Assembly: GCA_021166815.1 (NCBI GenBank)
Contig: JAJPEO010000017.1
Span: 1 to 28,281, forward strand
Origin: Nocardioides sp.
Lineage (GTDB): Bacteria > Actinomycetota > Actinomycetes > Propionibacteriales > Nocardioidaceae
Direction of reading: 5' to 3'
DNA: 28,281 bases
The position numbers were made by a program, and so were the translations under genes. The notes under the pieces are model-generated. The model was given only the letters and a program-made list of their open reading frames with translations, had not been told where the DNA came from and searched no databases. Shown piece by piece: positions 1 to 25,421 of this stretch. Each line of letters opens with the position of its first letter. The first letter of the stretch is position 1.

Positions 1-1360
1 CGGCCTCGGCCGCGGTGAGCCAGCCCTCGGCCACGACGACCTCGAGCACGCCCCGGTCCGAGGCCAGCGCCAGCCGGGCCGCCTCGGTGGCGCGTTCGTA
101 CCCGATCATCGGGCTCAGCGCGGTCACCAGTCCGATGCTGCTCTCCACCTGGGCGCGCAGGTGCACCTCGTTGACCGTGATGCCGTCGACACAGCGCGTC
201 GCCAGGGCGGTGGACGCCCGGCCGAGCCGGTCGATGCTCCGGAACAGCGTGTGCCCGATCACCGGCTCGAACGCGTTGAGCTGGAGCTGACCGGCCTCGG
301 CCGCCATCGTGACGGTGAGGTCGTTGCCGATCACCTCGAAGGCCACCTGGTTGACCAGCTCGGGGATCACCGGGTTCACCTTGCCGGGCATGATGCTCGA
401 CCCCGCCTGACGCTCCGGGAGGTTCAGCTCGTGGAAGCCCCCTCGGGGCCCCGACGCCAGCAGCCGCAGGTCGTTGCAGATCTTGGAGAGCTTGACGGCG
501 TACCGCTTGAGCATCGACGAGAGCAGCACGAAGACGCCGCAGTCCTGGGTCGCCTCGATCAGGTCCGGAGCGGTGCGCACCGGCAGCCCGGTGATCCTCG
601 CCAGGTAGTGGCGCACCAGGTCGCGGTAGTCGTGGTGTGCGTTCAGGCCGGTGCCGATGGCCGTCCCGCCGAGGTTGACCTCCAGCAGGTGCGGGACCAC
701 CTCGTCGATGCGCGCGCGGTCCTCCCGCAGCGTCGCCGCGAACGCCCGGAACTCCTGGCCGACGGTCATCGGCACGGCGTCCTGGAGCTGCGTGCGCCCG
801 AGCTTCAGCACGTCGCCGATGTCGTCGGCCTTCCGCTCGAACGACGCCGCCAGTGCCTCGATCCGCACCACGAGATCGCGCACGGCGAGCCGCAGCCCGA
901 GCCGCAGCGCGGTCGGGTAGACGTCGTTGGTGGACTGTCCCAGGTTCACGTGCTCGTTGGGATGGACCACGGCATAGCTGCCCCGCGGCTCGCCGAGCAG
1001 TTCCAGCGCCCGGTTGGCGATGACCTCGTTGGCGTTCATGTTGGTCGACGTCCCCGCACCGCCCTGGAGCACGTCGACGACGAAGGAGTCCCGCAGCCGC
1101 CCCTGCCGGATCTCCAGGCACGCGGCGACGACGGCGTCCGCCACCTGCTCGTCCAGGAGGCCGAGGTCCCGGTTGGCCATCGCCGCGGCCTGCTTGACGC
1201 CGGCCAGCGACTCGATCAGCGCCGGGTGCGCCGCGATCGGGGTCCCGGTGATGTCGAAGTTCTGCAGCGCCCGGGCCGTGTTGATGCCCCAGTAGGCCTC
1301 GGCGGGGATCTCGAGCTCGCCGATCAGGTCGTGCTCGACGCGCAGCGCGGGTCGCGTCAT
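1..1360 (-). CDS. aspA: Aspartate ammonia-lyase (partial, C-terminus beyond the window)
   Basis: Reverse translation from the ATG at 1360 gives an aspartase/fumarase-superfamily protein, MTRPALRVEHDLIGELEIPA at its N-terminus. About 453 residues are inside the window; the family is about 470 long, so only the tail is missing. Visible signatures: GTSTNMNANEV near residues 103-113, HPNEHVNLGQSTNDVYPT near 133-150, LIEATQDCG near 268-275, and the flexible catalytic loop GSSIMPGKVNP near 320-330 with the base Ser and the Lys and Asn of the substrate-binding site. The Thr in QSTND and the LIEAT segment favour aspartase over class II fumarase. It would reversibly turn L-aspartate into fumarate and ammonia in the cytosol. 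Its start overlaps the stop of the epimerase gene by an ATGA junction, so it is the last visible gene of the operon that starts at 6293. A lyase on a related amino acid is possible. Confidence 0.88.
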   Translation of the reverse strand, partial: MTRPALRVEHDLIGELEIPAEAYWGINTARALQNFDITGTPIAAHPALIESLAGVKQAAAMANRDLGLLDEQVADAVVAACLEIRQGRLRDSFVVDVLQGGAGTSTNMNANEVIANRALELLGEPRGSYAVVHPNEHVNLGQSTNDVYPTALRLGLRLAVRDLVVRIEALAASFERKADDIGDVLKLGRTQLQDAVPMTVGQEFRAFAATLREDRARIDEVVPHLLEVNLGGTAIGTGLNAHHDYRDLVRHYLARITGLPVRTAPDLIEATQDCGVFVLLSSMLKRYAVKLSKICNDLRLLASGPRGGFHELNLPERQAGSSIMPGKVNPVIPELVNQVAFEVIGNDLTVTMAAEAGQLQLNAFEPVIGHTLFRSIDRLGRASTALATRCVDGITVNEVHLRAQVESSIGLVTALSPMIGYERATEAARLALASDRGVLEVVVAEGWLTAAEA

Positions 1361-1764
1361 CCGTCGGTCTCGCTCGAGGTCTCCACCAGCTCGACCAGCA
1401 CCCCGCCGAACGAGCGCGGATGGGCGAACGCGATCCGGTGGCCCCCGCCGCCGATCCGGGGCTCGCGGTCGATCAGCTCGACCCCGTGGCGCGCCATCCG
1501 GTCGAGGGCGGCGGGGAGGTCCTCGACCTCGAAGGCCACGTGGTGCAGACCCGGTCCGCGGGCCGCGATCGACCTCCGCACCACGCCGTCGCCGGTCGCC
1601 TCCAACGCCTGGAGCCAGCAGTCACCGACCGGGAGCATGCGTTCCACGAAGCCGGGCGCCGCCTCCTCGCTCTCGACCTCGAGCCCGAAGACCTCCTGGA
1701 GCCGCCGCACCACAGCGGCGCCGCTCTCCTCGGCGAAGGCGACGTGATGGATCCGTTTGAGCAC
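1357..1764 (-). CDS. mce: Methylmalonyl-CoA epimerase (VOC/glyoxalase fold)
   Basis: A 135-residue protein read from a GTG at 1764 with an AGGAG four bases upstream. A longer in-frame ATG at 1818 exists, but the extra 18 residues only translate a 14-bp tandem repeat, so I reject it. The protein has two VOC half-domains: LKRIHHVAFAEE near the start and GPGLHHVAFEVEDLP near residues 71-84. The expected metal ligands are in place: His7, Gln52 (CWLQ), His75 and Glu126 (VLVELVE). The family interconverts (S)- and (R)-methylmalonyl-CoA, the step before the B12-dependent mutase. The mutase subunits are encoded at 16297-18296 in another operon of this window, which supports the assignment. It overlaps aspA by 4 bases downstream and sits 88 bases after the aldehyde dehydrogenase stop. 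Confidence 0.8.
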   Translation of the reverse strand: MLKRIHHVAFAEESGAAVVRRLQEVFGLEVESEEAAPGFVERMLPVGDCWLQALEATGDGVVRRSIAARGPGLHHVAFEVEDLPAALDRMARHGVELIDREPRIGGGGHRIAFAHPRSFGGVLVELVETSSETDG

Positions 1765-1773
1765 GGCACTCCT

Positions 1774-1815
1774 GATCTGAGTTCTGGGATCTGAGTTCTG
1801 GGATCTGAGCTCTGA
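1774..1815. repeat. Three tandem 14-bp repeats upstream of the epimerase
   Basis: The unit GATCTGAGTTCTGG occurs perfectly at 1774-1787 and 1788-1801, and a third time with two changes at 1802-1815. It fills most of the 88-bp gap between the aldehyde dehydrogenase stop (1853) and the epimerase GTG (1764). The GATCTGAG part is identical to part of the operator-like motif at 6321-6342 read on the minus strand, so it may be an array of half-sites or a slippage product of one. Confidence 0.85.
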
Positions 1816-1852
1816 CACCGGGCTCGCACCGGCTGATGACGGGCGACCCTGG

Positions 1853-3286
1853 TCAGCGCAGGCTGACCATCACGTGCTTCAGGTTCGTGTACTCCTCGAG
1901 CGCGTAGCTGGACAGGTCCTTGCCGTAGCCCGACTGCTTGTAGCCACCGAAGGGCATCTCGGGGGTGACCGGGAAGTGGTCGTTGACCCACACCGTGCCG
2001 AACTGCAGGGCCTTGGACATCCGCATCGCGCGGGCGACGTCCCGGGTCCACACCGAGGCGACCAGCCCGTACGGCGTGCCGTTGGCCGCACGGACGGCCG
2101 CCTCCTCGTCGGCGACGCGTTGCACGGTCACCACCGGCCCGAAGATCTCCTGCTGGATCAGGTCGTCGCCCTGCTCGGCGCCGGTGATCACGGTCGGCTG
2201 GAAGTAGTAGCCGGCCCGGTCGACGGCGACGCCGCCGGTGACCACCTCGGTCCGCGGCGAGCGGCCGGCCACGAGCGCGGCCACGCGGTCGCGCTGGGCC
2301 GCGCTGATCAGAGGCCCGAGCGTCGTCGCGGGGTCGCTGGTGTCACCGACGACGAGCTTCCCGGCCGCGTCCGCGACGGCCGCGACCAGCTCGTCGTACG
2401 CCTTCGGGGTCGCCAGCACGCGGGTGGCGGCGGTGCAGTCCTGGCCGGCGTTCCAGAAGCCGCCGGCCGCGATCGCACCGGCGGCGGCCGCGACGTCCGC
2501 GTCGTCGAAGACGACGACCGGGGCCTTGCCGCCGAGCTCGAGGTGGACGCGCTTGAGCGAGTCCGCCGCCGTGCGGGCGATGGCCTTGCCGGTGGCGACC
2601 GACCCGGTCAGCGAGACCATGTCGACGCCGGGATGCCCGACGACCGCGGCGCCGACCTCGTCGCCGCCCGCCACCGCGTTCAGGACGCCGGGGGGCAGCA
2701 CCTCCGCCGCGAGGGCGGCCAGCCGCAGCGTGGACACCGGCGTGAGCGGCGCCGGCTTGAGCACCACGGTGTTCCCCGCCGCGAGGGCCGGGCCGATCTT
2801 CCAGAGGGCCATCATCAGCGGGTAGTTCCAGGGCGCGATCTGACCGACCACGCCGATCGGCTCGCGCCGCAGCATCGAGGTGTAGCCCGTCAGGTACTCC
2901 CCCGCCGCCTTCCCCTCCACGACCCGGGCCGCACCGGCGAAGTACCGCAGGCTGTCGACGCCGCCGTCGACCTCGTCGCCGACCGACTCGATCGGCTTGC
3001 CGGCGTTGCGGGAGTCGTCGGAGACGAACAGCGACCGGTGCTCCGCCACCGCGTCGGCCAGCGCGAGCAGGTGCTCCGCTCGCGCGGACGGAGTGGTGTC
3101 CGCCCAGCCCTCCGCGGCCCGGCGTGCGGCGGACACCGCCCGGTCGACGTCGCCGCGGCCCGAGTCGGGCGCCACCGCGAAGGAGGTGCCGGTCGACGGG
3201 TCGGTCACCTCGCGCGACGCACCCGACGCGGCCTCGACCCGCTGCCCGTCGATGAGGTTGAGGAACGGGTATGCGTAGTCGCTCAT
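1853..3286 (-). CDS. Aldehyde dehydrogenase, gamma-aminobutyraldehyde/betaine-aldehyde type
   Basis: A full-length NAD(P)-dependent aldehyde dehydrogenase of 477 residues. The active site is intact: APWNYP with Asn154 (oxyanion hole), LELGGK with the general base Glu250, and WNAGQDCTAATR with the nucleophile Cys284; the C-terminal EMPFGGYKQSGYGKD is also typical. The GQDCTAATR form of the cysteine motif is common in the gamma-aminobutyraldehyde dehydrogenase (PatD-like) branch, which handles amino or amide-bearing aldehydes, but the substrate cannot be fixed from sequence. Its ATG overlaps the stop of the FAD oxidase by 4 bases, so the oxidase and dehydrogenase are translationally coupled. 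An alcohol-to-aldehyde-to-acid pair is a natural reading. It is cytosolic; no signal peptide is seen. Confidence 0.88.
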   Translation of the reverse strand: MSDYAYPFLNLIDGQRVEAASGASREVTDPSTGTSFAVAPDSGRGDVDRAVSAARRAAEGWADTTPSARAEHLLALADAVAEHRSLFVSDDSRNAGKPIESVGDEVDGGVDSLRYFAGAARVVEGKAAGEYLTGYTSMLRREPIGVVGQIAPWNYPLMMALWKIGPALAAGNTVVLKPAPLTPVSTLRLAALAAEVLPPGVLNAVAGGDEVGAAVVGHPGVDMVSLTGSVATGKAIARTAADSLKRVHLELGGKAPVVVFDDADVAAAAGAIAAGGFWNAGQDCTAATRVLATPKAYDELVAAVADAAGKLVVGDTSDPATTLGPLISAAQRDRVAALVAGRSPRTEVVTGGVAVDRAGYYFQPTVITGAEQGDDLIQQEIFGPVVTVQRVADEEAAVRAANGTPYGLVASVWTRDVARAMRMSKALQFGTVWVNDHFPVTPEMPFGGYKQSGYGKDLSSYALEEYTNLKHVMVSLR

Positions 3287-4512
3287 CGGTCTCCTTCGCG
3301 CGGCGCGCCGTCCAACAGGCCGCCGAGATAGGGGTTGGTGAAGAGGTGGCCGGGATCGAACTCGGCGCGCACCTCACGGAACGCGGACAGGCCGGGGTAC
3401 AGGGCGGCCAGGTCGGCGGCGTCGTACGGGTGCCACTTCCCCCAGTGCGGACGCCCGTCGAACTGCGCGAAGACCCACTCGCAGTCGCGGAAGAGCGCCG
3501 CGTTGTCCTCCCCCATCACTCCGGAGACCGAGATCGAGCACGAGGCCCGCGCCGAGAACGGGCTGAGGTAGGAGTCGTCGGCCGCGATGAAGCGCACCTC
3601 CAGCGGGAGCGGGTGCTCCGGATGACGCGCGAGCAGCATCGCCCGGAGCTCGCCGAGCGCCTCCTCGGCGCGCTCGATCGGCACCATGAACTCGAGCTCG
3701 TGGAACGTCGGCTCGGACGGGTCGGCGAAGACCTGGTAGGCGCGGCCCACCCGGGGCGTGCCGTCGGCCCTGGGGGCGTCCGCCGGCAGCGGGTCCATCG
3801 TCTTGACCAGCACGGTGTCCGCGCCGAGCGGCGGATCGTAGTCGAACCACGCACCCGCCGCGGCGGCGGTGGGGAACCAGTAGAAGAGGAAGTGCCGGTG
3901 CCCGTCGAGGCGCTCGGACCAGCTGTCGAGCAGCTCCGCCCAGCTGGCCGGCTCGAGCCGGGCCGCGAGCGAGTAGGCCGGCGAGACCTGCAGGGTCAGC
4001 TCGGTGACCACCCCGAGCGCACCGAGCGACGTGCGGGTGGCGCGCAGCCACTCGGGCGTCGAGGAGTCGACGACGGCGACCGACCCGTCGGCGCGGACCA
4101 CGCGCGCGCCCACGACCGCGTTCGACAGGGAGCCGAGGTCGCGGCCGGTGCCGTGCGTGCCGGTGGCGATCGCGCCGGCGATCTGCTGGCCGTCGATGTC
4201 GCCCTGGTTGGTGAGGCTCAGCCCGTGCTCCCACAGGAGCGGACCGAGGTCGCAGATCCGCGTGCCGGCACGCACCGTCGCCCGATGGGTCGCGCAGTCG
4301 ACGTCGACCAGGCCGGACAAGCCGGCCAGGTCGACCACGACGCCGTCGGTGAGGACGAGCGGCACGTTGGAGTGTCCCGACCCGGCGGGCCGCAGCGTCC
4401 GGCCCCGGGACCGGGCCCTGTCGACGGCCTCGACGACCTCGGCCTCGGACGCCGGCGTGACGACCTCCGCCGGGGTGCAGTGCTGGTTGCGGTACCAGTT
4501 CGTCCAGTGCAT
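3283..4512 (-). CDS. FAD-linked oxidoreductase, D-arabinono-1,4-lactone oxidase/alditol oxidase family
   Basis: A 409-residue flavoprotein. The N-terminal half is an FAD-binding PCMH domain; the segment RTLRPAGSGHSN places His47 where the covalent FAD linkage lies in alditol oxidase (His46 there). The C-terminal half carries the ALO-family signature HWGKWHPYDAADL and FDPGHLFTNPYL. Members oxidise primary or secondary alcohols of sugars or lactones with O2 (oxidases) or another acceptor (dehydrogenases). The ATG at 4512 follows an AAGGAA box at good distance. It lies 43 bases after tenA copy 1 and overlaps the downstream aldehyde dehydrogenase. The context suggests oxidation of a hydroxymethyl group to an aldehyde, but this is inference; a role in sugar-acid metabolism is equally compatible with the sequence alone. 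Confidence 0.82.
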   Translation of the reverse strand: MHWTNWYRNQHCTPAEVVTPASEAEVVEAVDRARSRGRTLRPAGSGHSNVPLVLTDGVVVDLAGLSGLVDVDCATHRATVRAGTRICDLGPLLWEHGLSLTNQGDIDGQQIAGAIATGTHGTGRDLGSLSNAVVGARVVRADGSVAVVDSSTPEWLRATRTSLGALGVVTELTLQVSPAYSLAARLEPASWAELLDSWSERLDGHRHFLFYWFPTAAAAGAWFDYDPPLGADTVLVKTMDPLPADAPRADGTPRVGRAYQVFADPSEPTFHELEFMVPIERAEEALGELRAMLLARHPEHPLPLEVRFIAADDSYLSPFSARASCSISVSGVMGEDNAALFRDCEWVFAQFDGRPHWGKWHPYDAADLAALYPGLSAFREVRAEFDPGHLFTNPYLGGLLDGAPREGDR

Positions 4513-4555
4513 CGACTTCCTTCGGGTAGACGGGGTGCGCGCGGTGGCGGGCGGC

Positions 4556-5248
4556 TCAGTTGGCCGGGACCGCCAGGTCCGGCCACTGCCGACAGCCGTA
4601 GGCCATGTCCCAGAACGCGACCTCCAGCCGGCTCGCGGTCGCGAACTGCTCCCGCAGGAAGCCGCGCCTGCTGTCGTCGGCCCGGGCCGCCAGCTCCGCG
4701 AAGTTCGCCTGCATCTGCCGGAGCCGCTCGCCGTAGAAGTCGCCGACGAAGAACTCCATCCAGGCCGTGTAGAGCGAGTCCGGCGCGATCACCTCGACCA
4801 GCTCCAGGGCGATCTCCCGGTAGCTGATCGCGCACGGCAGGATCACCGTCATCACGTCCAGCGCGTCCCCGCGGTACGCCGTGGCCGTCAGGAAGGACGT
4901 GTACGCCAACGTGGTCGGCGCCATCCCCCGCGACCCGCCGCGGTCGGCCGCCCCGAGGTCGATGACCCGCTGCAGCAGCTGCTCGTTGCGCGGGAGCTCG
5001 TTGTCGACGATGTTGTCCAGCGAGTCCCGGAGCCAGGCGACCTCGTCCACCCGGGCGGCCCGGGCGGCACCGAGAGCCATGCACTTGGCGTACTCCCGGA
5101 GGTACATCGTGTCCTGCTCCAGGTAGAACCGGAACCGGTCCAGGCTGAGCGTCCCGGTCGCCATCTCCCGCAGGAACGGGTGGTCGTGCAACGAGTCCCA
5201 GATCTGCGGGCAGGACTTCCGGAGCCACTCGGCGGTCAGCTCGCTCAT
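4556..5248 (-). CDS. tenA: TenA-family aminopyrimidine hydrolase, copy 1
   Basis: A 230-residue all-helical TenA/THI-4/PqqC-domain protein. B. subtilis TenA hydrolyses 4-amino-5-aminomethyl-2-methylpyrimidine to the hydroxymethyl form (HMP) plus ammonia. The key residues can be matched: Asp46 in YLEQDTMYL (equivalent of Asp44, which binds the pyrimidine amino group), the nucleophile Cys139 in VILPCAISYREI, and Glu209 in RLEVAFWDMAY (equivalent of Glu205). It is therefore of the cysteine (TenA_C) type. The DNELPRNEQLL segment (82-92) is also family-like. It is the second gene of the operon starting at 6293, 37 bases after the amidohydrolase and 43 before the FAD oxidase. Identity among the three TenA copies in this window is low enough that they look functionally distinct rather than recently duplicated. 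Confidence 0.87.
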   Translation of the reverse strand: MSELTAEWLRKSCPQIWDSLHDHPFLREMATGTLSLDRFRFYLEQDTMYLREYAKCMALGAARAARVDEVAWLRDSLDNIVDNELPRNEQLLQRVIDLGAADRGGSRGMAPTTLAYTSFLTATAYRGDALDVMTVILPCAISYREIALELVEVIAPDSLYTAWMEFFVGDFYGERLRQMQANFAELAARADDSRRGFLREQFATASRLEVAFWDMAYGCRQWPDLAVPAN

Positions 5249-5285
5249 GTGCGCCTCTCTTTCTCGGGACGGTCGGGTCGGCAGG

Positions 5286-6293
5286 TCAGTCGATCAGGCG
5301 CATGATCCGGGCGAAGTTGTCGCCCAGGATCCCGTCGAGCTTGGCCTGAGGGATCTCCGGCATGTCGAGCTTGCGGGCCACCTCGTTGACGCTCAGGACC
5401 TTGTCGCGCAGCTGCACCGGGTCGTAGGTGAAGCCCGGGTAGTCGGAGCCGAAGACCACCTTCTCGAGCGGGACGAACATCTGCTCGAGGTGGAGCAGCC
5501 ACCGGTACAGCTCCTCGGTGGTGACGGTCGAGATGTGGTAGCTGAGCTCGGCGAAGAAGTTGGGGTGCTTGGTGCACATGAACATCGCCTCCTCCACCCA
5601 GGGCGTGCCGCAGTGGGCGATCAGCAGCCTCACGCTGGGGAAGTTCCTGCCGATGTCGTCGAGCAGGGCGGGGCGGGCGAAGTCCATCCGGGCATCGACG
5701 CGGGTCGACCCGGCCTGGTGCACCAGCACCGGGATGTCGAGCTCGGCGGCCTTCTCGAAGATGGGGAAGGAGAGGATCGGGTCGGCCGGGGACCAGTGCT
5801 GGTACATCGGGTAGAGCTTGAGGCCCTGGAGCCCCAGCTCGGTGACCGCGCGCTCGAGCTCGGCGACCGCCGCCTTGACCCCCTTGTAGTTGGGGTTCAC
5901 CGATGCGAAGCCGATGAACGTGTCGGGGTGCTGGCCCTGTACGTCGGCGATGTAGTCGTTGCACTTCTCGGGCGTCGGCGGGCCGGGCACCGAGGTGACG
6001 CCGAGGTTGTCGACGGTCCCGATCAGCCGACCGTCGAGGAACTGCGGCGACATCGCCAGCAGCACGATGCGGTCGAAGCCGGGGTGGCCGGCGATCATCT
6101 CGCTGGGCCCGATCTCGAGGAACCCGTCGTGCGAGAGGCCGCAGGCGCCGTACTCGGCCTCGGTCGGCATCCGATGGCTGGGCAGCTTGCCCTGGGCACG
6201 GTAGATGCAGAGCGACCCCTCCCGGCCGTACTCGGCCGTGAACGCGGGATCGGCTGCGAGCCCGAGGATGTGCGTGTGTGCGTCGATGATCAC
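5286..6293 (-). CDS. Amidohydrolase_2 (ACMSD-like) metal-dependent hydrolase or decarboxylase
   Basis: A 335-residue TIM-barrel protein of the amidohydrolase-related family that includes 2-amino-3-carboxymuconate-semialdehyde decarboxylase. The start is a GTG at 6293; an AGGAG lies about 10 bases upstream. The first strand carries His6 and His8 (IIDAHTH), followed by GLKLYP near 157-162, His192 in VLVHQAG, His227 in LLIAHCGTPW and Asp284 in VFGSDYPG, so the metal site is complete. Relatives are either non-oxidative decarboxylases of ring or open-chain dicarboxylates, or hydrolases, including ring-opening lactonases; the sequence does not tell which. It is the first gene of the leftward operon, and an operator-like site lies 28-49 bases before its start. 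Confidence 0.83.
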   Translation of the reverse strand: MIIDAHTHILGLAADPAFTAEYGREGSLCIYRAQGKLPSHRMPTEAEYGACGLSHDGFLEIGPSEMIAGHPGFDRIVLLAMSPQFLDGRLIGTVDNLGVTSVPGPPTPEKCNDYIADVQGQHPDTFIGFASVNPNYKGVKAAVAELERAVTELGLQGLKLYPMYQHWSPADPILSFPIFEKAAELDIPVLVHQAGSTRVDARMDFARPALLDDIGRNFPSVRLLIAHCGTPWVEEAMFMCTKHPNFFAELSYHISTVTTEELYRWLLHLEQMFVPLEKVVFGSDYPGFTYDPVQLRDKVLSVNEVARKLDMPEIPQAKLDGILGDNFARIMRLID

Positions 6294-6320: not shown

Positions 6321-6342
6321 TTTATATGTCAGATCTCAGATC
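6321..6342 (-). promoter_or_regulatory. Operator-like site A, upstream of the amidohydrolase_2 operon
   Basis: Read on the minus strand this is GATCTGAGATCTGACATATA followed by AA. It matches site B at 17 of 22 positions in the same orientation towards its gene. It is one of seven related sites, all at the start of transcription units in this window, and lies 28-49 bases upstream of the GTG at 6293. Likely protein: one of the two GntR regulators (inference). Confidence 0.55.
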
Positions 6343-6425: not shown

Positions 6426-6447
6426 GATCTCAGATCCAATATATGAA
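6426..6447 (+). promoter_or_regulatory. Operator-like site B, upstream of the aldehyde dehydrogenase 2 operon
   Basis: GATCTCAGATCCAATATATG plus AA, ending 16 bases before the ATG at 6464. It is nearly the same as site A on the opposite strand, so the divergent pair of operons at 6293 and 6464 probably shares control. The closeness to the start codon would suit a repressor that overlaps the promoter or initiation region. Confidence 0.55.
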
Positions 6448-9779: not shown

Positions 9780-9837
9780 GGTCCCGTTCCTTCCGGCCTG
9801 TCCGCATCCGTCTGCCCCAGGGGGAGACAAAAAGCCT

Positions 9838-9857
9838 TGTATCTCATATCTTAAACC
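9838..9857 (+). promoter_or_regulatory. Operator-like site C, between GntR copy 1 and the aminohydrolase
   Basis: TGTATCTCATATCTTAAACC. It shares ATCTCATAT with site E and the TGTATnnCATAT pattern with site G. It lies 59-78 bases before the GntR start and 52-71 before the ATG at 9909, so it could serve autoregulation and control of the aminohydrolase. It is one of the weaker members of the set. Confidence 0.42.
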
Positions 9858-18306: not shown

Positions 18307-19500
18307 CTACTTCTTCTGCAGCGCGAGCGCGCCGAATGTGGTGTAGACCTGCGTGGCCTCGGCGAGGTCCTCCAGCGAGAGGTGCTCGTCGGGGCAGTAC
18401 ACGGGCTCGCCGCCGGGGCCGAAGATGATCGTGGGCACCTGGTCGCCGAAGCTCGCGGTGTCGCCGAGCCAGCCCGCGACCTGGAGCGGCGGCTCCGCGC
18501 CGCGCACCGACCGCACCGACTCGCGCATCAGCTCGACCACGGGGTCACCGGGCTTGGCCAGGTAGCCGGACTTCACGTCGACCAGCTCCACCTCGGCACG
18601 GAACCGGGGCTCGCGGGCCTGCGCGGCCGCCAGGCACCGGTCGATCTCGGCGCGCACCTGGTCGACGGTCACCCCGGGCTGCGGCCGGCAGTCGACCCGG
18701 ATCACGCACTCGTCCGGGATCATCGACGGCCCGCCGGGCGGGAGGCCGCCGTAGACGCGCCCGGGCGCCATGTACGTCTCGCCGCCGAAGAGGTCGACCA
18801 CCCAGGTCTCGAGGTCCGGCAGCAGCGCCGAGCGGTCGAGCTCGAGGATGGCGTGCGCCGCCAGGGCGTTCGCGTTGACCGCGAGCGGCTTGTGGCAGGT
18901 GTGCGCCGAGGTGCCGATGACCGTGATGTCGAAGTAGTAGCGACCCCGGTGCCCGAGGAAGATCTCGTTGTCGGAGAGCTCGCCGAGCACGCAGTAGTCG
19001 GCGGGGTACTCCTCGAAGTAGCGGATCGAGCCGAGCTGGTCACCCATGTGGTCGGAGACCGCGGCCATCGCCAGCGTTCCCGAGATCGGGATGCCGGAGT
19101 CGCGCAGCGCCTCGATCGCGACGATCTGGCAGACCAGCGCCGCCTTCATGTCCATGATCCCGTGCCCGTAGATCGCTCCGTCGATCAGCTCGCCGGAGAA
19201 CGGCGCGGTCTTGGACCAGCCGTGGGAGACGGGCTTGGTGTCCATGTGGCCGGTCATCACGACGCGAGGACCCGCGCCGAAGGACAGCTCACCGATCGCG
19301 TTGGGCCGGTCGGGCAGGACGTCCTGCTGCCGCACGTCCTCGAACCCCGACGACTTCATGACGTCGACCAGGAACGCCGCCAGGGGGCCCTCCTCGCCGA
19401 GCACGGAGGGGATCCGGCACACCTCCTGGACCAGGGTGTGCAGCCGGTCGTAGTCGATCGACGCCAGAGCCCTGGCCGCCACTGGGTTCCCGCTGGTCAT
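18307..19500 (-). CDS. M20-family metallohydrolase, copy 2, with altered EE motif
   Basis: A 397-residue M20/ArgE-DapE-like protein. I place the start at the ATG at 19500; an in-frame upstream ATG at 19551 lies in the operator-like site. Metal-site pieces: His85 and Asp87 in VMTGHMDTKPV, Asp117 in YGHGIMDMKAA, Glu174 in VLGELSD, and a late His in CPDEHLSLEDL. The catalytic/metal pair that is normally Glu-Glu (DEExxG) reads Asp150-His151 in AVSDHMGDQLG. It is the first gene of the seven-gene operon (mutase, CoA transferase, flavoenzyme). Given the TenA and ThiXYZ context it is a candidate counterpart of YlmB, the formylaminopyrimidine deformylase of thiamine salvage. The changed pair could mean another metal or mechanism, or loss of hydrolysis. 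Confidence 0.83.
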   Translation of the reverse strand: MTSGNPVAARALASIDYDRLHTLVQEVCRIPSVLGEEGPLAAFLVDVMKSSGFEDVRQQDVLPDRPNAIGELSFGAGPRVVMTGHMDTKPVSHGWSKTAPFSGELIDGAIYGHGIMDMKAALVCQIVAIEALRDSGIPISGTLAMAAVSDHMGDQLGSIRYFEEYPADYCVLGELSDNEIFLGHRGRYYFDITVIGTSAHTCHKPLAVNANALAAHAILELDRSALLPDLETWVVDLFGGETYMAPGRVYGGLPPGGPSMIPDECVIRVDCRPQPGVTVDQVRAEIDRCLAAAQAREPRFRAEVELVDVKSGYLAKPGDPVVELMRESVRSVRGAEPPLQVAGWLGDTASFGDQVPTIIFGPGGEPVYCPDEHLSLEDLAEATQVYTTFGALALQKK

Positions 19501-19536
19501 GCGCCCCTGCTTCCTTCGGTGATGGTTGAGATGTCC

Positions 19537-19559
19537 AATATTAGATCTCATATGCGATG
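19537..19559 (+). promoter_or_regulatory. Operator-like site E, upstream of the mutase operon
   Basis: Plus strand AATATTAGATCTCATATGCG plus ATG, 37-59 bases before the ATG at 19500. It shares AGATCnnATATnnGATGTG with site F in the same orientation towards a leftward operon. The terminator of the tenA copy 2 operon lies just to its right. Confidence 0.52.
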
Positions 19560-19613: not shown

Positions 19614-19620
19614 CCGTCGG

Positions 19621-20316
19621 TCACACGAGGGTCGGCCACTCCTCGCCGCGGTAGGCCGAGTCCCAGAACATCCACTCGTACCTGGTGGCGGCGATCGCGA
19701 TGTCGACGCCTCGCTGCTTCTCTGCCTCCGCGACGTCCCGCGCCAGCACGTCGACGTCCGCCAGCACCCGTTCGACCTCGTCGAGGTAGTCCGACCCGGC
19801 GTAGCTCTCGATCCATCGCTGGTAGGTGGGATGGGGCGAGCCGGCCGCGACCAGGTGCCTGCCGACCTCGGCGTACACCCACATGCACGGCAGCACGGCA
19901 CACAGGCCCTCGAAGAACGAGCCGGAGTGGACGCGCGCGGTCACGAAGTCGACGTACGCCGCCGCGGTCGGCGTCGGCAGCACCCCGGTCAGCACCCCTG
20001 CCGGCGCGTCGATCATGTCCACGAGCTCCGCATGGAGGCCCGACTCCGCGGTCACCGCCCCGGCCGCGTGCTGGAGCAGCGATCGGGTCAACGCCATGTT
20101 CGGCGCCGTCGCGCTCAGCATCGCGAGGGAGCGGGCGTACTCGTGCACGTAGTACGTGTCCTGCGCGAGGAACCGGACGAACGCCTCGGGCGCCAGCTCC
20201 CCCGACGTCAGGCCCGTGATGAAGGGATGCTGGAGGATCTCGAGATGGATCGGCTCGATGGCCGACCAGAGCTCACCGGTCCACCCCGTGCGCCTGACCT
20301 CGACCGTGGCGGTCAT
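19621..20316 (-). CDS. tenA: TenA-family aminopyrimidine hydrolase, copy 2 (importer operon)
   Basis: A 231-residue TenA-domain protein from the ATG at 20316, overlapping the stop of the binding-protein gene by ATGA. Matching residues: Asp53 in FLAQDTYYVHEYAR (Asp44 of B. subtilis TenA), Cys144 in AVLPCMWVYAEVG (Cys135) and Glu214 in RYEWMFWDSAY (Glu205). It is a complete cysteine-type TenA. Coupling of tenA to a ThiY-type importer is the classic arrangement of base-degraded thiamine salvage, where TenA releases ammonia from the 5-aminomethylpyrimidine. The 128-APAGVLTGVLPTPTAAAY region differs clearly from the other two copies. It is the last gene of its operon, with a hairpin 7 bases further on. 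Confidence 0.88.
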   Translation of the reverse strand: MTATVEVRRTGWTGELWSAIEPIHLEILQHPFITGLTSGELAPEAFVRFLAQDTYYVHEYARSLAMLSATAPNMALTRSLLQHAAGAVTAESGLHAELVDMIDAPAGVLTGVLPTPTAAAYVDFVTARVHSGSFFEGLCAVLPCMWVYAEVGRHLVAAGSPHPTYQRWIESYAGSDYLDEVERVLADVDVLARDVAEAEKQRGVDIAIAATRYEWMFWDSAYRGEEWPTLV

Positions 20317-21341
20317 TCGGCATCGCCCCCGTCGGGGAGCATGTCGGTGTTGACCACGTTCGCGGCGTCGACTTCCTTCTCCAGCAGGTCGTTGTCGTAC
20401 AGCCAGTCCGCGAGCGCCTGCCACTCGGCGACGTCCATCTGGCCGAAGCCGTCCTCGTTCGCCAGGAGCGGCGCGGTGAGGTCGATCATCTCCTTGAGGC
20501 TCTCGTCGCTGTACCCCTTGGCGACGCCCGAGATCGCCTCGAACGCCGCGTCGTGGTCCTCCTGGGCCTTGGCGTCGCCCTGGGCGAGACCGGCGAGGAA
20601 CTTGCGGATCGTCTCCTGGTAGGCCTCGTCCTCCTCGAGCTTGCTGCGGTTGGCGATGAGCACCAGCTCGTCGTACTCCGGCACGCCGGCCTCGCCGACC
20701 GCGTACCCGACCGGGTCGACGCCGTTCTCGCGCAGCTCGACGCTCTCGATGTTCTGGTAGGCGCCGATGATCGCGTTCACCTTGCCGGAGATCATCGCCG
20801 GCGCGTAGCCCTGGTTGATGGACACGAACTTGATGTCGTCCTCGGCGAAGCCCTGCTGCTCGAGGGCGTAGGCCCACATCGCCTCGGACACGGGGTCACC
20901 CGAGGAGCCGATCGGCTTGCCCTTGAGGTCTCCCAGCTCCTGGACCTCGTCGGTGCGGTTCAGGATCAGCGAGTTGAGCGTCGTCGGGATCAGCGCGGCG
21001 ACCGCCACCACGTCGAGACCCTGGGCGTCGGCGTTGATGACCGCGTTCGCGTAGGAGATGGCCAGCGGCATCTGCCCCAGGCTGACCATCTTCAGCGAGT
21101 CGGTGTTGTTGGAGGGCGGCTGGAACTTGACCTTGAGGTTCTCGTCCTCGAACGCTCCCATGTCCTGGGCGGTGTACAGAGAGATGTGGTCCGGGTTGGG
21201 GAACCACTCCAGGAGCACGGTGACGTTGCCGTCCGCCCCGGTGCCGGACGCATCGTCGCCGCAGGCGGTCAGGGCACCGGCGGCCAGCAACACGCTGGTC
21301 GCCAGCAGAGCGGCCCTCCGGCGGGTGTTGAGTTTCCTCAT
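20313..21341 (-). CDS. thiY: ABC importer substrate-binding lipoprotein, ThiY/NMT1-THI5-like
   Basis: A 342-residue secreted lipoprotein: positively charged start MRKLNTRRR, hydrophobic stretch, and lipobox LTAC with Cys27 as the lipid-bearing residue. The mature part begins with the NMT1/THI5 pattern LLEWFPNPDHISLYTAQDMG, followed by AFEDENLKVKFQPPSNNTDS and LGQMPLAISYANAVI; these closely resemble ThiY, which binds formylaminopyrimidine from degraded thiamine (the WxPN and NxTD segments). SsuA/TauA-like sulfonate binding proteins share the fold but lack the NPDH-type start. GAYQNIESVELRENG near 190-204 is also THI5-like. An AAAGGAAG box precedes the ATG, and the stop of the permease gene overlaps it. 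The gene symbol is by similarity of motif and gene order. Confidence 0.78.
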   Translation of the reverse strand: MRKLNTRRRAALLATSVLLAAGALTACGDDASGTGADGNVTVLLEWFPNPDHISLYTAQDMGAFEDENLKVKFQPPSNNTDSLKMVSLGQMPLAISYANAVINADAQGLDVVAVAALIPTTLNSLILNRTDEVQELGDLKGKPIGSSGDPVSEAMWAYALEQQGFAEDDIKFVSINQGYAPAMISGKVNAIIGAYQNIESVELRENGVDPVGYAVGEAGVPEYDELVLIANRSKLEEDEAYQETIRKFLAGLAQGDAKAQEDHDAAFEAISGVAKGYSDESLKEMIDLTAPLLANEDGFGQMDVAEWQALADWLYDNDLLEKEVDAANVVNTDMLPDGGDAE

Positions 21342-22186
21342 CTGCGGTCTTCCTTTCTTGCCCAAGGGCAGACGAACCGTTCGACGATCGAGACGGCCAC
21401 GAAGAGGCTGATGGACATGAACGTGAGGATGAAGATCGCCACGAACACCATGTCCGTCTGCAGTTGCGAGGTGGCCTGGATCATCACGTAGCCCAGGCCG
21501 TCCAACGAGCCCGCGAACTCGCCGAAGACAGCACCGACCGAGGCGTAGGTCGCCGAGATCCTGAGGCCGGTGAAGAAGGAGGGAAGCGCAGCGGGGATCT
21601 CGACCCGCCGCAGGATGGCCCACCGACTGGCGTCGAGGGTGCGCATCACCTTGATGAGCTCCGGGTCGACGGAGGCGAGGCCGTGCATCGTGTTGACCAC
21701 GATCGAGAAGAAGCAGATCAGCGCCACCACGATGACCTTCGGCATCAGCGTGTAGCCGAAGATGATCGCGAGCACCGGGGCGATGACCACGATCGGCACC
21801 GCCTGGGACCCGATCAGCAGCGGCATGAACGCCGTGCGCAGCACCGGGGACATGTGGAGCGTCAGCGCGATCGAGACACTCACCACGATCGCCACGCCGA
21901 AGCCGATCAGCACCTCCGTGAGGGTGACCACGGTGGCGCTGGCGAACGTGTCCTCCCAGTTCTCGGAGGCGGACGCCCAGATCTCGCTCAGCGTGGGCAG
22001 GATGTAGTCCGGGACGCCGAAGACGTCACCGACCATCTGCCAGAGGATGCCGATCACGAGCAGGATGCCCGCGGGAGGCAGGATCCGCTTCGCCGTCGCG
22101 CCCAGCCACCGTCGGCGGGAGCCGGTGTCGGCGTCCGACGTGGGGACGTCCGTGCCAGTCGAGGTCATGGTCTCCATCACCGTCAT
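21338..22186 (-). CDS. thiX: ABC importer permease, ThiX-like
   Basis: A 282-residue inner-membrane permease of the BPD_transp_1 type. Hydrophobic segments lie at about residues 36-53, 86-110, 122-144, 148-166, 211-229 and 245-268, giving six membrane spans. The EAA-like loop that docks the ATPase is EIPAALPSFFTGLRIS at about 196-211. The N-terminus (about 30 polar residues) is cytosolic. The ATG at 22186 overlaps the stop of the ATPase gene and its own stop overlaps the start of the binding-protein gene, so the three importer genes are translationally coupled. SsuC/TauC/ThiX permeases are alike; the choice of ThiX rests on the ThiY-like partner and tenA. Confidence 0.82.
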   Translation of the reverse strand: MTVMETMTSTGTDVPTSDADTGSRRRWLGATAKRILPPAGILLVIGILWQMVGDVFGVPDYILPTLSEIWASASENWEDTFASATVVTLTEVLIGFGVAIVVSVSIALTLHMSPVLRTAFMPLLIGSQAVPIVVIAPVLAIIFGYTLMPKVIVVALICFFSIVVNTMHGLASVDPELIKVMRTLDASRWAILRRVEIPAALPSFFTGLRISATYASVGAVFGEFAGSLDGLGYVMIQATSQLQTDMVFVAIFILTFMSISLFVAVSIVERFVCPWARKEDRR

Positions 22187-22986
22187 TCCGTCACCTCCAG
22201 AAGGGACAGGAGCTCGTCGCGCAGCTGTGCGAACTCCGGATGCCGGATCAGCTCCCGGCGACTCTCGGTCTGCGGCAGCCGGACGTCTATCTGCTGCACG
22301 ATCCGGCCCGGACGCGCGCTCATCACCACGACCGTGTCGCCGAGCAGCAGCGCCTCCTCGACGTCGTGGGTGACCAGCACGGTGGTCCGCGGCGCCTCGT
22401 CGAGCGTGCGGCGCAGCCACTGCTGCAGGTCCGCGCGCGTGATCGAGTCGAGAGCACCGAACGGCTCGTCGAAGAGCAGCACGTCCTTGCCCGCGGCCAT
22501 CGTCCGCAGGAAGGAGACACGCTGTCGCATGCCGCCCGAGAGCTGGTGCGGGTACTTCTTCTCGAAGCCCGAGAGCCCGAACCGGTCGATCAGGTCGAGC
22601 ACCTGCTCGCGAGCCGCGCGCTTGGAGGTGCCGTGGTTCTCCAGCGCGAGCGCGGCGTTGCCGGCCACGTCGCGCCAGGGCAGGAGCAGGTCGCGCTGGG
22701 GCATCCAGGCGCAGCGCGCGAGCCGCTCCTTCATCGTGGTGGCCCCCTCGACGCGCACCACGCCGTCCGTGGGGTCGGTGAGGCCACAGATCATCGAGAG
22801 GATGGTCGACTTGCCGCACCCGCTCGGGCCGACGATCGACATCCGGCCGTGACGCGGGAGGGACAGGCTCGCGCCGGACACGGCCACCGTCGAGCCGAAC
22901 CGCTTCTCCACGTCGACCAGGTCAATGCCGACCTCGTCCTGGTGTCGACCCGCCGCGGGGGCCTGGACTTCCGTTCCTGAGTGCAT
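22183..22986 (-). CDS. thiZ: ABC importer ATPase, ThiZ-like
   Basis: A 267-residue nucleotide-binding subunit. Walker A GPSGCGKST (53-61), Q-loop MPQRDLLLPW (95-104), signature LSGGMRQR (149-156), Walker B VLLFDEP (169-175), D-loop ALD and switch His207 in VTHDVEEA are all intact. I start it at the ATG at 22986, which has GGAG 6 bases upstream; an in-frame ATG at 23208 would read through the intergenic region and into tenA copy 3. It is the first gene of the importer operon, with operator-like site F 19-41 bases ahead. NitT/SsuB/ThiZ ATPases cannot be separated on sequence alone. Confidence 0.88.
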   Translation of the reverse strand: MHSGTEVQAPAAGRHQDEVGIDLVDVEKRFGSTVAVSGASLSLPRHGRMSIVGPSGCGKSTILSMICGLTDPTDGVVRVEGATTMKERLARCAWMPQRDLLLPWRDVAGNAALALENHGTSKRAAREQVLDLIDRFGLSGFEKKYPHQLSGGMRQRVSFLRTMAAGKDVLLFDEPFGALDSITRADLQQWLRRTLDEAPRTTVLVTHDVEEALLLGDTVVVMSARPGRIVQQIDVRLPQTESRRELIRHPEFAQLRDELLSLLEVTE

Positions 22987-23004
22987 GACGCTCCGGGGGT
23001 TCAA

Positions 23005-23027
23005 GATTCGAGATCTGATATATGATG
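23005..23027 (+). promoter_or_regulatory. Operator-like site F, upstream of the importer operon
   Basis: Plus strand GATTCGAGATCTGATATATG plus ATG, 19-41 bases before the ATG at 22986. It is the best representative of the motif (AGATCTGATATATGATGTG). The gap to the tenA copy 3 stop is only 64 bases, too short for a TPP riboswitch, and I see no THI-box sequence. Confidence 0.55.
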
Positions 23028-23050
23028 TGCGTCGATCATAGAGACGGCAG

Positions 23051-23770
23051 TCACAGTTGACCAGCCCCTTCGCCACTCTCTTCGTCGCTCGCGTCGCGAC
23101 CGTGGGCCAGCGCCATCTCCCAGAACTCCCACTCCAGGCGGGTCGCGTCGCCGAAGATCCCGACCAGTCGGTCACGCTGGGCCGGGTCCAGCCCCGAGAC
23201 GTCGGCATCCATGCGCTCCCGCATGCCGGCCTCCAGCTCGGCGTACTGGTCGCTGGCGAAGAACTCGAACCACTCGCGGTACACCGGGTGCGCGACCGCC
23301 CCGCCGAGGTGCCGGCGCGCGATCTCGCCGTAGCTCCACGCGCACGGGAGGATCGCCGCCCCGATCGCCACGACGTCCGCGGTGCCCGCGACCGCCAGCA
23401 GGTACGACGTGTAGTTCCGCGTGCCGGGCGCCATCACGACCTCCCGCGAGACGTGGTCGCCGCTGAGGTCGCGCACCCGCGCCAGGAGCCTCTCGTTCTG
23501 CGGGATCTCGACGTCGACGATGTTGACCAGCGCGGCCGAGTACCGCCGCAGTTCGTCGTCGGAACGCGACTTCGTCACCGCGCACGCGATCGCGCGGGCG
23601 TACTGCGGCAGGTACAGCAGGTTCTGCCCCACGTAGTACTGGTAGACGGGCGCCGGCAGCGTGCCGTCCGCCATGCCGCGGACGAAGGGGTGGTCCGGCA
23701 GCCGGTCCCACACGTCGGCCACCGCGTCGCGAGCGATGTCCGTGAATCCCCCACCAGGTCCGGAAGTCAT
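23051..23770 (-). CDS. tenA: TenA-family protein, copy 3, with Asp-to-Asn change in the pyrimidine site
   Basis: A 239-residue TenA-domain protein from the ATG at 23770 with a near-perfect AGGAGGAGAG just upstream. Cys143 in AILPCAWSYGEI and Glu213 in RLEWEFWEMA keep the catalytic pair, but the residue equivalent to Asp44, which holds the 4-amino group and N3 of the pyrimidine, is Asn50 (YYVGQNLLYLPQYAR). A side chain that can both donate and accept hydrogen bonds could suit a 4-oxo (deaminated) ring better than a 4-amino ring. The gene is a single transcription unit pointing away from the aminohydrolase at 23866, which may make exactly such a deaminated compound. This link is inference. Confidence 0.86.
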   Translation of the reverse strand: MTSGPGGGFTDIARDAVADVWDRLPDHPFVRGMADGTLPAPVYQYYVGQNLLYLPQYARAIACAVTKSRSDDELRRYSAALVNIVDVEIPQNERLLARVRDLSGDHVSREVVMAPGTRNYTSYLLAVAGTADVVAIGAAILPCAWSYGEIARRHLGGAVAHPVYREWFEFFASDQYAELEAGMRERMDADVSGLDPAQRDRLVGIFGDATRLEWEFWEMALAHGRDASDEESGEGAGQL

Positions 23771-23779
23771 CTCTCCTCC

Positions 23780-23801
23780 TGTATTGCATATTGAATATGA
23801 T
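23780..23801. promoter_or_regulatory. Operator-like site G, between tenA copy 3 and aminohydrolase copy 2
   Basis: Plus strand TGTATTGCATATTGAATATG plus AT; it contains the imperfect inverted pair GCATATT/GAATATG. It lies 10-31 bases before the tenA start and 65-86 before the ATG at 23866. It shares TGTATnnCATAT with site C and CATAT with the others but lacks AGATC, so it is a weaker member. Confidence 0.42.
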
Positions 23802-23865
23802 TCGCCGACCATAGGTTCACCGCGGTGCACCGTCAATGGCTGCGCCCCTTGATCCGGAGGAACAC

Positions 23866-25416
23866 ATGCGCACCTTGGTCCTGGGCGATCCCGTCGTGGC
23901 ATTGAGCGACATCGATCTCATCGAGGACGGCGCGGTGATCGTGCAGGACGAGGCCATTGCCGAGGTCGGCCCTCGTGAGCGGCTGGAGCAGCACGGCCCC
24001 TTCGACCAGGTGCTCGGCGGGCCGGACAGCATCGTGATGCCGGGCCTCGTCAACGGGCACTACCACTCGGAGCTGTCCGTCGGCCCCGGCCACTACCAGT
24101 ACATCTTCGAGCAGGCCAACGTGCACGTGCACGGTGGCTACGGACCCGCCCTGGAGCACGACCTCTACCTGATCGCCCAGCACTCGATCGCCGCCATGAT
24201 CAGGGGTGGCCAGACCTCGGCGGTCGACATGTACTACGGCCGGCCGTCGGTCCCCCACTTCGGCACCGAGCCGGTGCTGCGCGCCTATGCCGACAGCGGT
24301 TTCCGGGTGGCGTTCGGACTGGTGTCGCGGGACCAGCACGTCTACGCCCACGAGGCGGACGACTGCTTCCTCAAGCGGCTGCCGCCGGCGCTCGCGGCCG
24401 AGGTGAGGGCCTCGCCGATGGGCTACGCCTGGCCGCTCGACGAGGTGTTCGCGACGTACGACCACCTGGCCCGGACGTGGGACGGGTACGACGGCCGGAT
24501 CCGCACCGTCCTGGCGCCGGACTGGACCCCCGCCTGCTCCGACGAGCTCTACCAGCGGTGCCGGCGGCTCGCGGACGAGTACGACACCGGCATCACCTCG
24601 CACGTGCTGGAGACCCGCGCCGAGATGCACTTCAGCCACCAGCGCTACGGCATGTCCGCGCTCGAGCGGTTGGACCGCCTCGGCGTCCTCGGACCGGACA
24701 TGGTGTGTGCCCACTTCGTCTGGGTCACCGACGACGAACTGCGGATCTTCGCCGACAGCGGCGCGGTGGCGTCCAACAACCCCGGATCGAACCTGCGGCT
24801 CTCCGCGGGCGTGGCCCGGATCCGCGACATCATGGCCGCGGGCGGCCGGGTGATGTTCGGCACCGACGGGATCTCGTTCAACGACGACGAGGACATGTTC
24901 ACCGAGATCCGCCTGGGCTCCTACCTCTACCGCGACCCCCGCGACTTCGAGCACGTCCGGGCCGACAGCGCCGCCCTCCTTCGCTCGGCGGGCGAGAACG
25001 GCGCGCGGGCAATCCGCCAGGAGGGCCGGGTCGGGCGCCTGGCCCCGGGGCTGCTCGCCGACCTCCTGATCCTCGACCGCACCCGCCTCATGAGTCCGGC
25101 CGGCCGCTACGACGACACCCCGTTTCTGGACCTGCTGGTCGACCGCGCCCAGCGTCACGACCTGCGGAGCGTGATGATCCACGGCCGGCTGGTGATGAGC
25201 GACGGCGTCCTCACCACCATCGACGAGGCTCGGCTCCGGCGGGAGCTGGAGGAAGCCCTCGAGCAGCGGGTCTACCACCCAGATGCCGCAACCCGACGTC
25301 ACCAAGAGCTCGGCCACCTGGTCACTGGAGTGCTGCCGGACATCTATCGGGAGGCGTACGAGCACGTCGTCACCCCTGCAGCTGTGTTCAACGCTCGGTC
25401 AGTGCCTGGGGACTGA
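23866..25416 (+). CDS. Aminohydrolase of the cytosine deaminase/TrzA type, copy 2
   Basis: A 516-residue amidohydrolase-superfamily enzyme. Of two in-frame ATGs (23836 and 23866) I choose the second, which has GGAGGA 5 bases ahead. Metal and catalytic residues: His65 and His67 in [12 protein letters not shown], His246 with Glu249 in [10 protein letters not shown], His283 in [27 protein letters not shown] near 303-317, and Asp334 in [13 protein letters not shown]. It is about 80 residues longer than copy 1; the extra part includes an insertion around 151-215 and a C-terminal extension. The family deaminates or dechlorinates N-heterocycles. It shares an intergenic region with tenA copy 3 and is followed 5 bases later by fbiC. 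Confidence 0.85.
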
Positions 25417-25421
25417 GCGTT

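Follow-up and report, generated by a model that had tools for sequence, protein, structure and literature searches.

A conserved actinobacterial gene cluster as a candidate catabolic regulon for a thiamine-derived aminopyrimidine in Nocardioides

Vitamin B1 (thiamine) limits microbial and animal communities, and older chemical studies deal with its degradation by soil bacteria; to our knowledge, no genes have been described for a route of B1-pyrimidine breakdown. A search of the open-licence literature, which largely leaves out subscription journals, returned no catabolic gene cluster for the thiamine pyrimidine. According to a 2025 article, only the catabolism of B6, NAD and riboflavin has been well characterised to date (PMC12746152). 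Here we describe a cluster of about two dozen genes in a 28,281-nucleotide stretch of DNA from a Nocardioides soli-like soil actinobacterium (contig JAJPEO010000017.1; hereafter the window); the stretch comes from an assembly of 400 contigs and 89.74% completeness. Catabolic clusters for B6 and riboflavin, such as that for lumichrome in Nocardioides simplex (PMC12746152), resemble the present locus in that soil bacteria mineralise a vitamin by means of clustered genes, in the lumichrome case within the same genus; the vitamin and the enzymes are different. With the thiamine salvage system (ThiXYZ, YlmB and TenA), the window has in common a ThiY-type importer, TenA and, at the family level, an M20 hydrolase. 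We propose, with a probability of roughly 0.6, that the genes of the window make up a single dedicated regulon, probably under GntR control, for the catabolism of an aminopyrimidine derived from thiamine; the substrate would be formylaminomethyl-pyrimidine (FAMP), aminomethyl-pyrimidine, hydroxymethylpyrimidine (HMP) or thiamine itself.

Gene calls and domain scans placed 24 genes between positions 2 and 25416 and recovered all gene families that a sequence-only reading of this DNA had listed (a ThiXYZ-like importer, TenA, M20, aldehyde dehydrogenases, a zinc dehydrogenase, an FAD oxidase, two TrzA-like enzymes and the rest). TenA is encoded by three genes rather than one (TenA1, 4556–5248; TenA2, 19621–20316; TenA3, 23051–23770; all on the minus strand) and the M20 hydrolase by two (M20b, 14002–15111; M20a, 18307–19503; both minus, PF01546, with uncertain starts). 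Two GntR/FCD regulators and an aspartate ammonia-lyase-like gene truncated at the left edge are to be added to that list. The importer consists of a substrate-binding protein of the ThiY/NMT1 type (SBP; 20313–21341), an ATP-binding cassette (ABC) permease (21338–22189; PF00528) and an ABC ATPase (22183–22989; PF00005), all on the minus strand, the latter two with uncertain starts. From TenA3 (23770) leftwards to the regulator gene GntR2 (11300), every gene lies on the minus strand with gaps of −11 to 117 bp, a range to be read with several start codons in doubt. The genome of N. soli DSM 105498 (locus L011) covered 20 of the window proteins, each with 96–100% amino-acid identity. The window differs from the salvage system in that a palindromic operator, together with GntR genes, takes the place of a thiamine pyrophosphate (TPP) riboswitch; it also has three TenA genes, lacks ThiD and ThiE, and carries extra genes for oxidation, deamination, ring opening and carbon entry.

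The co-conservation of these genes was assessed in 11 genomes from several actinobacterial genera, with the window and N. soli counted as one. A scan of a genome collection with the M29/NicX-like protein had yielded nine loci, N. soli among them, to which two further genomes of the genus (G014 and G008) were added. For eleven of the 24 window genes, at least eight of the ten other genomes had a homologue in their cluster stretch, in rearranged order. Homologues of M20a, of the LLM enzyme and of the M29-like protein were present and co-localised in 11/11 genomes, and a GntR2 homologue was likewise found in all 11. Amidohydro_2 was found in ten (nine of the ten others, at 62–94% identity), aldehyde dehydrogenase 2 (ALDH2) in nine (eight of the ten others, at 63–88%), and homologues of the SBP, the permease and the TenA3 type in nine each. 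Outside the close Nocardioides, the core enzymes were mostly 50–80% identical to those of the window, and the SBP, permease, ATPase, TenA and GntR proteins 21–68%. Among 58 genomes, homologues at the level of 60% or more of the M29-like protein and of Amidohydro_2 occurred in the same three (G000, G014 and G008). Aldehyde dehydrogenase 1 (ALDH1), the FAD oxidase and TenA1 were restricted to the window, G014 and N. caldifontis among the 11 genomes.

The promoters of the window contain AT-rich palindromes, from which we derived the operator pattern ATMTSAKAT. Its five exact sites in the window are all intergenic: the core ATCTCAGAT occurs twice in the divergent Amidohydro_2/ALDH2 promoter (site 1, 6333–6341; site 2, 6427–6435), ATCTCATAT in the divergent GntR1/TrzA1 promoter (9841–9849) and upstream of the M20a–mutase–LLM–M29 operon (19545–19553), and ATCTGATAT upstream of the ABC/TenA2 operon (23013–23021). 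The related pattern ATCTSAKAT, with up to one mismatch, gave 22 matches in the window, palindromic sites being counted on both strands, versus 5.98 expected, and none of 100 shuffled sequences reached 22. The cluster stretches of the ten held-out genomes contained 34 exact 9-bp sites, at least one per genome, so that window and held-out genomes together had 39 versus a summed expectation of about 1.5 (Markov-1 resampling). None of the 39 lies within a cluster gene matched by tblastn and 38 lie at most 350 bp upstream of one; the remaining site, in Parafrankia, precedes a gene for a GMC oxidoreductase. Over the whole held-out stretches the pattern matched 42 times; 300 patterns with permuted columns gave 0.46 matches on average and never more than 6 (0/300 reaching 42). 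We also searched eight whole genomes (~48 Mb) with the 17-mer TNRGATMTSAKATCYNA, allowing one mismatch; its 35 places were all in the fetched cluster stretches, and a reversed control was found in one place. Among the 35, 25 are at most 350 bp upstream of a homologue of a window gene, and the other ten stand at NtaA-like LLM genes (three), a RutA-like LLM gene (one), the Frankia GMC gene (two) and Bmp-type importer genes (four, of which three are in Frankia and one in N. caldifontis, beyond the second module described below). Operator copies beside Bmp/PnrA-type genes were located in Frankia EI5c (L042, contig C22, 44742–44900) and in N. caldifontis (G058:C1:641864), the importers being 61% identical; their position suggests a second importer in the putative regulon. 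At 1772–1812 of the window, in the interval that separates ALDH1 from the likely start of the epimerase-like gene, there are three tandem operator-like units, 14 bp apart and with one mismatch to ATCTSAKAT.

The two regulators, GntR1 (9087–9830, minus) and GntR2 (11300–11974, minus), both match PF07729/PF00392, and GntR2, with a homologue in 11/11 genomes, is our candidate for the operator-binding protein. The sequence-only reading had left room for the tenA/ABC genes and the mutase operon being chance neighbours; comparative genomics argues against chance, the gene set being found in ten other genomes and one operator upstream of the units. The co-conservation of the genes, the common operator and the fact that no TPP riboswitch was found at the cluster loci lead us to view the cluster as one dedicated regulon, most probably a catabolic one.

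Several observations weigh against this proposal. The TrzA-like aminohydrolase 2 (TrzA2) occurs in 5/11 genomes, that is, in four of the ten others, and in four more its place is taken by a second copy resembling TrzA1. TrzA1 itself has a homologue in 11/11 genomes, that of Acrocarpospora being only 29% identical. Acrocarpospora has no TenA in its stretch, no ThiXYZ-like genes, no ALDH2 and no close TrzA1, and its whole genome gave no Amidohydro_2 match at 1e-20. The fetched Parafrankia stretch has no TenA, the sole TenA of this genome being on another contig. Nakamurella HJP_bin23 and Actinobacteria 69-20 look mutually close, so the genomes are not all independent. A cruder open reading frame mask placed 12 of the 39 operator sites inside called frames, probably because of over-extended starts, and, since the 17-mer consensus was built from these very clusters, its near-absence elsewhere alone counts as independent evidence. 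The SBPs of three genomes, those with the aminotransferase described below, are only 21–26% identical to that of the window. A canonical TenA is not always present, since the sole TenA of Frankia EI5c is of the N44 type. Finally, the nearest folds of the Amidohydro_2 protein are mostly decarboxylases, and loss of the carboxyl group at C5 would deprive the mutase of a branched substrate.

A simpler explanation of the window would be a thiamine salvage locus (ThiXYZ, YlmB and TenA) that happens to lie among unrelated catabolic genes. All three TenA genes of the N. soli genome are within the cluster, so that TenA salvage would have to run through it, a point in favour of such a locus. Against it stand the gene content kept across ten other genomes and the common operator. 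An Rfam scan at the gathering score of the window and 14 fetched cluster loci (265,553 bases) yielded no family, the TPP riboswitch included, though 8/8 genomes have a TPP-riboswitch match elsewhere, seven of them above the cut-off. In Nakamurella leprariae, a third TenA match lies on a different contig, its start 108 bp behind a TPP riboswitch, so that in this species the salvage TenA is located apart from that of the cluster. Most isolate genomes do not have multiple tenA copies, as PMC10470507 remarks; N. soli has three. Domain scans of the window genes assigned no ThiD, ThiE or ThiM, save for TenA-domain matches to fused models. We thus regard chance salvage as very improbable; the riboswitch scans in particular disfavoured it. 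Catabolism fits better than salvage because the SBP is nearest to ThiY and TPP-riboswitch control was not found. The catabolic proposal of the sequence-only reading accordingly gains from the co-conserved set, the common operator, the ThiY-like SBP and the missing riboswitch; it had to be revised as to the number of TenA genes, the metal ligands of the M29-like enzyme and the mutase block, which is replaceable.

The nature of the substrate is suggested by the SBP and TenA. The best PDB match of the SBP was the FAMP-binding ThiY 3ix1 (E = 6.2e-35), followed by the binding protein 4nmy and then by the yeast pyrimidine-synthesis enzymes THI5 and THI13. TenA1, TenA2 and TenA3 scored 136.6, 130.5 and 134.4 bits, respectively, against TIGR04306, all over the cut-off of 130. 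When 20 TenA rows from the stretches were aligned (B. subtilis numbering), C135, E205, Y47, Y112, Y139 and F208 were kept in every row. The rows fall into three types: the canonical D44/Y163 (eight rows, including TenA2 of the window and two rows labelled TenA3 by best-match naming), D44/F163 (TenA1; three rows, in Nocardioides alone), and a conserved non-canonical type with N44 and F or W at 163 (nine rows in nine genomes, including TenA3 of the window, which has F163). An aspartate at the position that by our count is D44 belongs to the most group-specific thiaminase residues (PMC5623701). Because of N44 in place of D44, TenA3 is to be viewed as a TenA-fold variant and not as a proven thiaminase; a role of N44 in recognition of a 4-oxo ring is our guess.

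These features could also belong to a regulon of like kind for another N-heterocycle, such as a pyrimidine natural product or a xenobiotic, with ThiY-like uptake and TenA-fold cleavage. The non-canonical TenA3 (N44 in 9/9 rows of its type, and the sole TenA of Frankia EI5c) is in keeping with this idea, as are the divergent SBPs of the three aminotransferase-type clusters and the second importer type, Liv or Bmp/PnrA, of some clusters. ThiY remains the best solved relative of the window SBP, however, and among the nine genomes represented in the TenA alignment, seven also carry a TenA of the D44 type in their stretch; the exceptions are Frankia and NakHJP, of which NakHJP is truncated at the end of a contig. 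We consider a different heterocycle unlikely.

For a thiamine-derived aminopyrimidine, the following route can be drawn up. The ThiY-type ABC importer would take up the compound, and TenA would cleave its methylene C–N bond to give HMP. The CH2OH group would be oxidised to the 5-carboxylate by the zinc alcohol dehydrogenase (Zn-ADH; 7998–9017, plus; PF08240/PF00107) or by the FAD-linked oxidase of the ALO/VAO type, a candidate alcohol oxidase (3283–4512, minus; PF04030/PF01565 and TIGR01679), and then by ALDH2 (6464–7939, plus; PF00171), a core gene; ALDH1 (1853–3286, minus) is also of family PF00171. In other taxa a GMC oxidoreductase may take over the first oxidation. Five stretches encode it, those of Microbacterium, N. 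leprariae, G008, Frankia and Parafrankia, and all five are without Zn-ADH; Zn-ADH is found in the window, G014, N. caldifontis, Actinobacteria 69-20 and NakHJP, none of which has a GMC homologue, and Acrocarpospora has neither. This swap, like that of mutase and aminotransferase described below, fits alternative enzymes for identical steps. The C4 amino group would be removed by a TrzA enzyme, TrzA1 (9909–11219, plus; PF01979) being the candidate ring deaminase. The LLM/F420-type enzyme (13004–14002, minus; PF00296) is a candidate for ring reduction at C5–C6, and two metal hydrolases, Amidohydro_2 (5286–6293, minus; PF04909) and the M29-like enzyme (12015–13007, minus), may open the ring. In the C4 INTERMEDIATE, the atoms C4, C5, C5a and C6 would form 2-(aminomethyl)malonate bearing an acetimidoyl group (C2 and the methyl). 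The second TrzA enzyme (TrzA2; 23836–25416, plus; PF01979), as a TrzA/HutF-like deiminase, could convert the acetamidine to the N-acetyl compound with release of ammonia, and M20a, the candidate N-acyl hydrolase, would release acetate. The remaining product would be an amino acid with a branched C4 chain, either 2-(aminomethyl)malonate or something similar.

How the ring is opened was addressed by residue comparisons. The M29/NicX-like protein matches NicX (7cn3) with E = 4.9e-7 (phmmer) and thus has its fold in common with the 2,5-dihydroxypyridine dioxygenase of nicotinate degradation. The iron ligands of NicX are H265, S302, H318 and D320 (PMC7910607); in the corresponding columns of the M29-like family, H318 and D320 are kept, whereas H265 is replaced with Glu and S302 with Ala. 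In two Pfam M29 members, the metal ligands E, E, H, H and D occupy matching columns, and they are conserved in 11/11 cluster homologues (E192, E254, H280, H298 and D300 in the window protein). The column of the catalytic tyrosine of an M29 metallopeptidase, Y315 of Lmo1603 (PMC4661694), contains Tyr in 11/11 cluster homologues (Y289 in the window) and Leu or Phe in two PF02073 members. The PF02073 score of the window protein, 11.8 bits, is under the gathering score of 27, and a PF02073 search of five cluster genomes gave no match. A plasmid search with the protein returned relatives under 60% identity alone. Three loci (L007, L008 and L009) encode proteins about 30% identical to it, with E/H/E/W/H/D in the ligand columns. 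The M29/NicX-like enzyme of the sequence-only reading is thus present as a family, with M29 rather than NicX ligands. These ligands speak for a hydrolytic opening of the ring rather than for a dioxygenation of the NicX type.

The same substrate could alternatively be cleaved oxidatively, by a RutA-like LLM monooxygenase and a NicX-fold dioxygenase, after decarboxylation by Amidohydro_2 in the manner of isoorotate decarboxylase. The Foldseek matches of Amidohydro_2 (4l6d, 2dvu, 4lan and others; model pLDDT 64.2) indicate an ACMSD/IDCase-type fold, and besides decarboxylases, such as the carboxyvanillate enzyme, the hydratase LigJ and the hydrolase LigY match too; the protein is a candidate ring hydrolase or decarboxylase. 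Oxidative cleavage is at odds with the two replaced iron ligands and with the M29 ligands of the 11 cluster homologues, from which the three more distant homologues above differ, and would leave mutase and aminotransferase without a role. The LLM enzyme of the window, moreover, has Mer models as its best matches (PDB Mer 8qq8; NF002619, 203.8 bits, below the cut-off of 276), and RutA is not among the 25 of 28 families shown; among the stretches, RutA-like LLMs occur in N. leprariae and G008 alone. Oxidative cleavage therefore appears improbable to us, and a NicX-type dioxygenase role was disfavoured after the ligand comparison. With Rut and reductive pyrimidine degradation, the hydrolytic route proposed here would have in common a pyrimidine ring that is deaminated, reduced or opened, and a member of the LLM family. 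In contrast to those routes, neither RutA nor a dihydropyrimidinase is among the families shown for the window proteins, and the 2-methyl ring would imply an N-acetyl rather than an N-carbamoyl intermediate. An FbiC-like F420 biosynthesis gene (25417–28281, plus; Radical_SAM and CofH_C) follows the cluster, which itself has the gene for the F420-type enzyme.

The fate of the C4 amino acid appears to differ between genomes. The large subunit of a B12 acyl-CoA mutase (16297–17877; PF01642), its B12-binding small subunit (17874–18296; PF02310), a family III CoA-transferase (15101–16300; PF02515) and M20b, all on the minus strand, occur together in 8/11 genomes, always between M20a and LLM, and are jointly absent from G008, Microbacterium and N. 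leprariae. Exactly these three genomes have a class I/II aminotransferase beside the M29-like gene (66–86% identical among them); tblastn at 1e-8 found none in the remaining stretches. A methylmalonyl-CoA epimerase-like gene (Glyoxalase_4; 1357–1758, minus, in a frame extending to 1818 with the start uncertain; TIGR03081 96.5 bits, below the cut-off of 114.95) occurs in six of the eight mutase-type genomes and in none of the other three. The mutual exclusion of mutase block and aminotransferase suggests two fates of one amino-acid intermediate. In the eight genomes, CoA activation, epimerisation and B12-dependent rearrangement would lead to an aspartyl thioester; in the other three, the intermediate would be transaminated. 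A substituted malonate needs CoA transfer, epimerisation and a carboxylate-reading B12 mutase, and the optional block would supply these. The CoA transferase, mutase and epimerase of the sequence-only reading are thus present, and the mutase operon is no chance neighbour; mutase, CoA-transferase and M20b are better described as a replaceable module.

The block might instead represent, together with the epimerase, an ordinary methylmalonyl/propionyl-CoA route beside pyrimidine genes. Y89 and R207 (alignment with E. coli ScpA), which we take to be the carboxylate-reading pair of methylmalonyl-CoA mutase, are present in 8/8 cluster mutases and, like the epimerase-like gene, are consistent with such a route. 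N. soli, however, encodes three additional mutases that appear to be MCM-, ICM- and ECM-like (methylmalonyl-, isobutyryl- and ethylmalonyl-CoA mutase), the latter two as judged by their motifs; ordinary methylmalonyl-CoA should therefore not require the cluster mutase. The fixed position of the block in eight genomes and its joint absence from three also speak against a general role. The cluster mutases form a group of their own, 68–86% identical to that of the window, other mutases in six genomes reaching at most 49%; a plasmid search returned relatives under 60% identity alone, 49.9% at most among the matches listed. The split large and small subunits recall HcmAB (2-hydroxyisobutyryl-CoA mutase), whose HCM is the best PDB match of the window mutase, and Y89/R207 are shared with methylmalonyl-CoA mutase; the window mutase differs from both in its separate grouping and in being embedded in the putative regulon. 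A propionate route is doubtful on these grounds, and a housekeeping propionate role was disfavoured by the comparison of the mutases. The aspartate ammonia-lyase-like gene cut by the window edge (2–1360, minus; Pfam Lyase_1/FumaraseC_C; NF008909, 698.1 bits versus a cut-off of 510) overlaps the epimerase-like gene by 4 bp; it was in none of the ten other stretches and thus in N. soli only among the 11 genomes.

A second module adjoins or sits inside the cluster in three Nocardioides: N. soli (G066:C1:430113-443793), G014 (G014:C18:219233-235176) and N. caldifontis (G058:C1:622456-637194). In N. soli it ends about 2.6 kb left of the window edge, if the two are colinear. It comprises genes for a CoA ligase, a TetR regulator, an MBL hydrolase, an ABC importer, a rhodanese and a CoxG/M/S/L molybdenum hydroxylase. 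An MBL-rhodanese and a TauE (sulfite) exporter turned up in a scan of G014 and as BLAST matches in N. caldifontis; the corresponding N. soli portion lies outside the fetched sequence. CoxL is 86–89% identical among the three species, has an 89% match on contig 386 of the assembly to which the window belongs, and reaches at most 40% identity in eight other genomes searched, including G008 of the same genus. The importer is of the Liv type in N. soli and G014; that of N. caldifontis includes a 28% homologue of the ThiY-like SBP and is accompanied by a canonical TenA. The operator was not found in the module in any of the three, the best sites having 3–5 mismatches to the 17-mer. The module could be the thiazole arm of thiamine degradation, an assignment made because sulfur handling and hydroxylation fit the thiazole half, in a module that is itself without the operator.

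A more far-reaching possibility, speculative and rather improbable at present, is that some Nocardioides mineralise the whole of vitamin B1: hydrolytic opening of the pyrimidine arm would yield 2-(aminomethyl)malonate, an isomer of aspartate, whose CoA ester would be rearranged by a specialised B12 mutase to aspartyl-CoA and enter the tricarboxylic acid cycle via aspartase, an aminotransferase would serve in other taxa, and the second module would be the thiazole arm. If true, the B12 reaction would be new, and B1 catabolism would have its first genetic pathway. With the proposed regulon, direct tests of thiamine catabolism become feasible in a named strain (N. soli DSM 105498), on the basis of a concrete set of genes, an operator and a candidate regulator. 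Further points of interest are the TenA subfamily of non-canonical type and what may be a new substrate of a B12 mutase.

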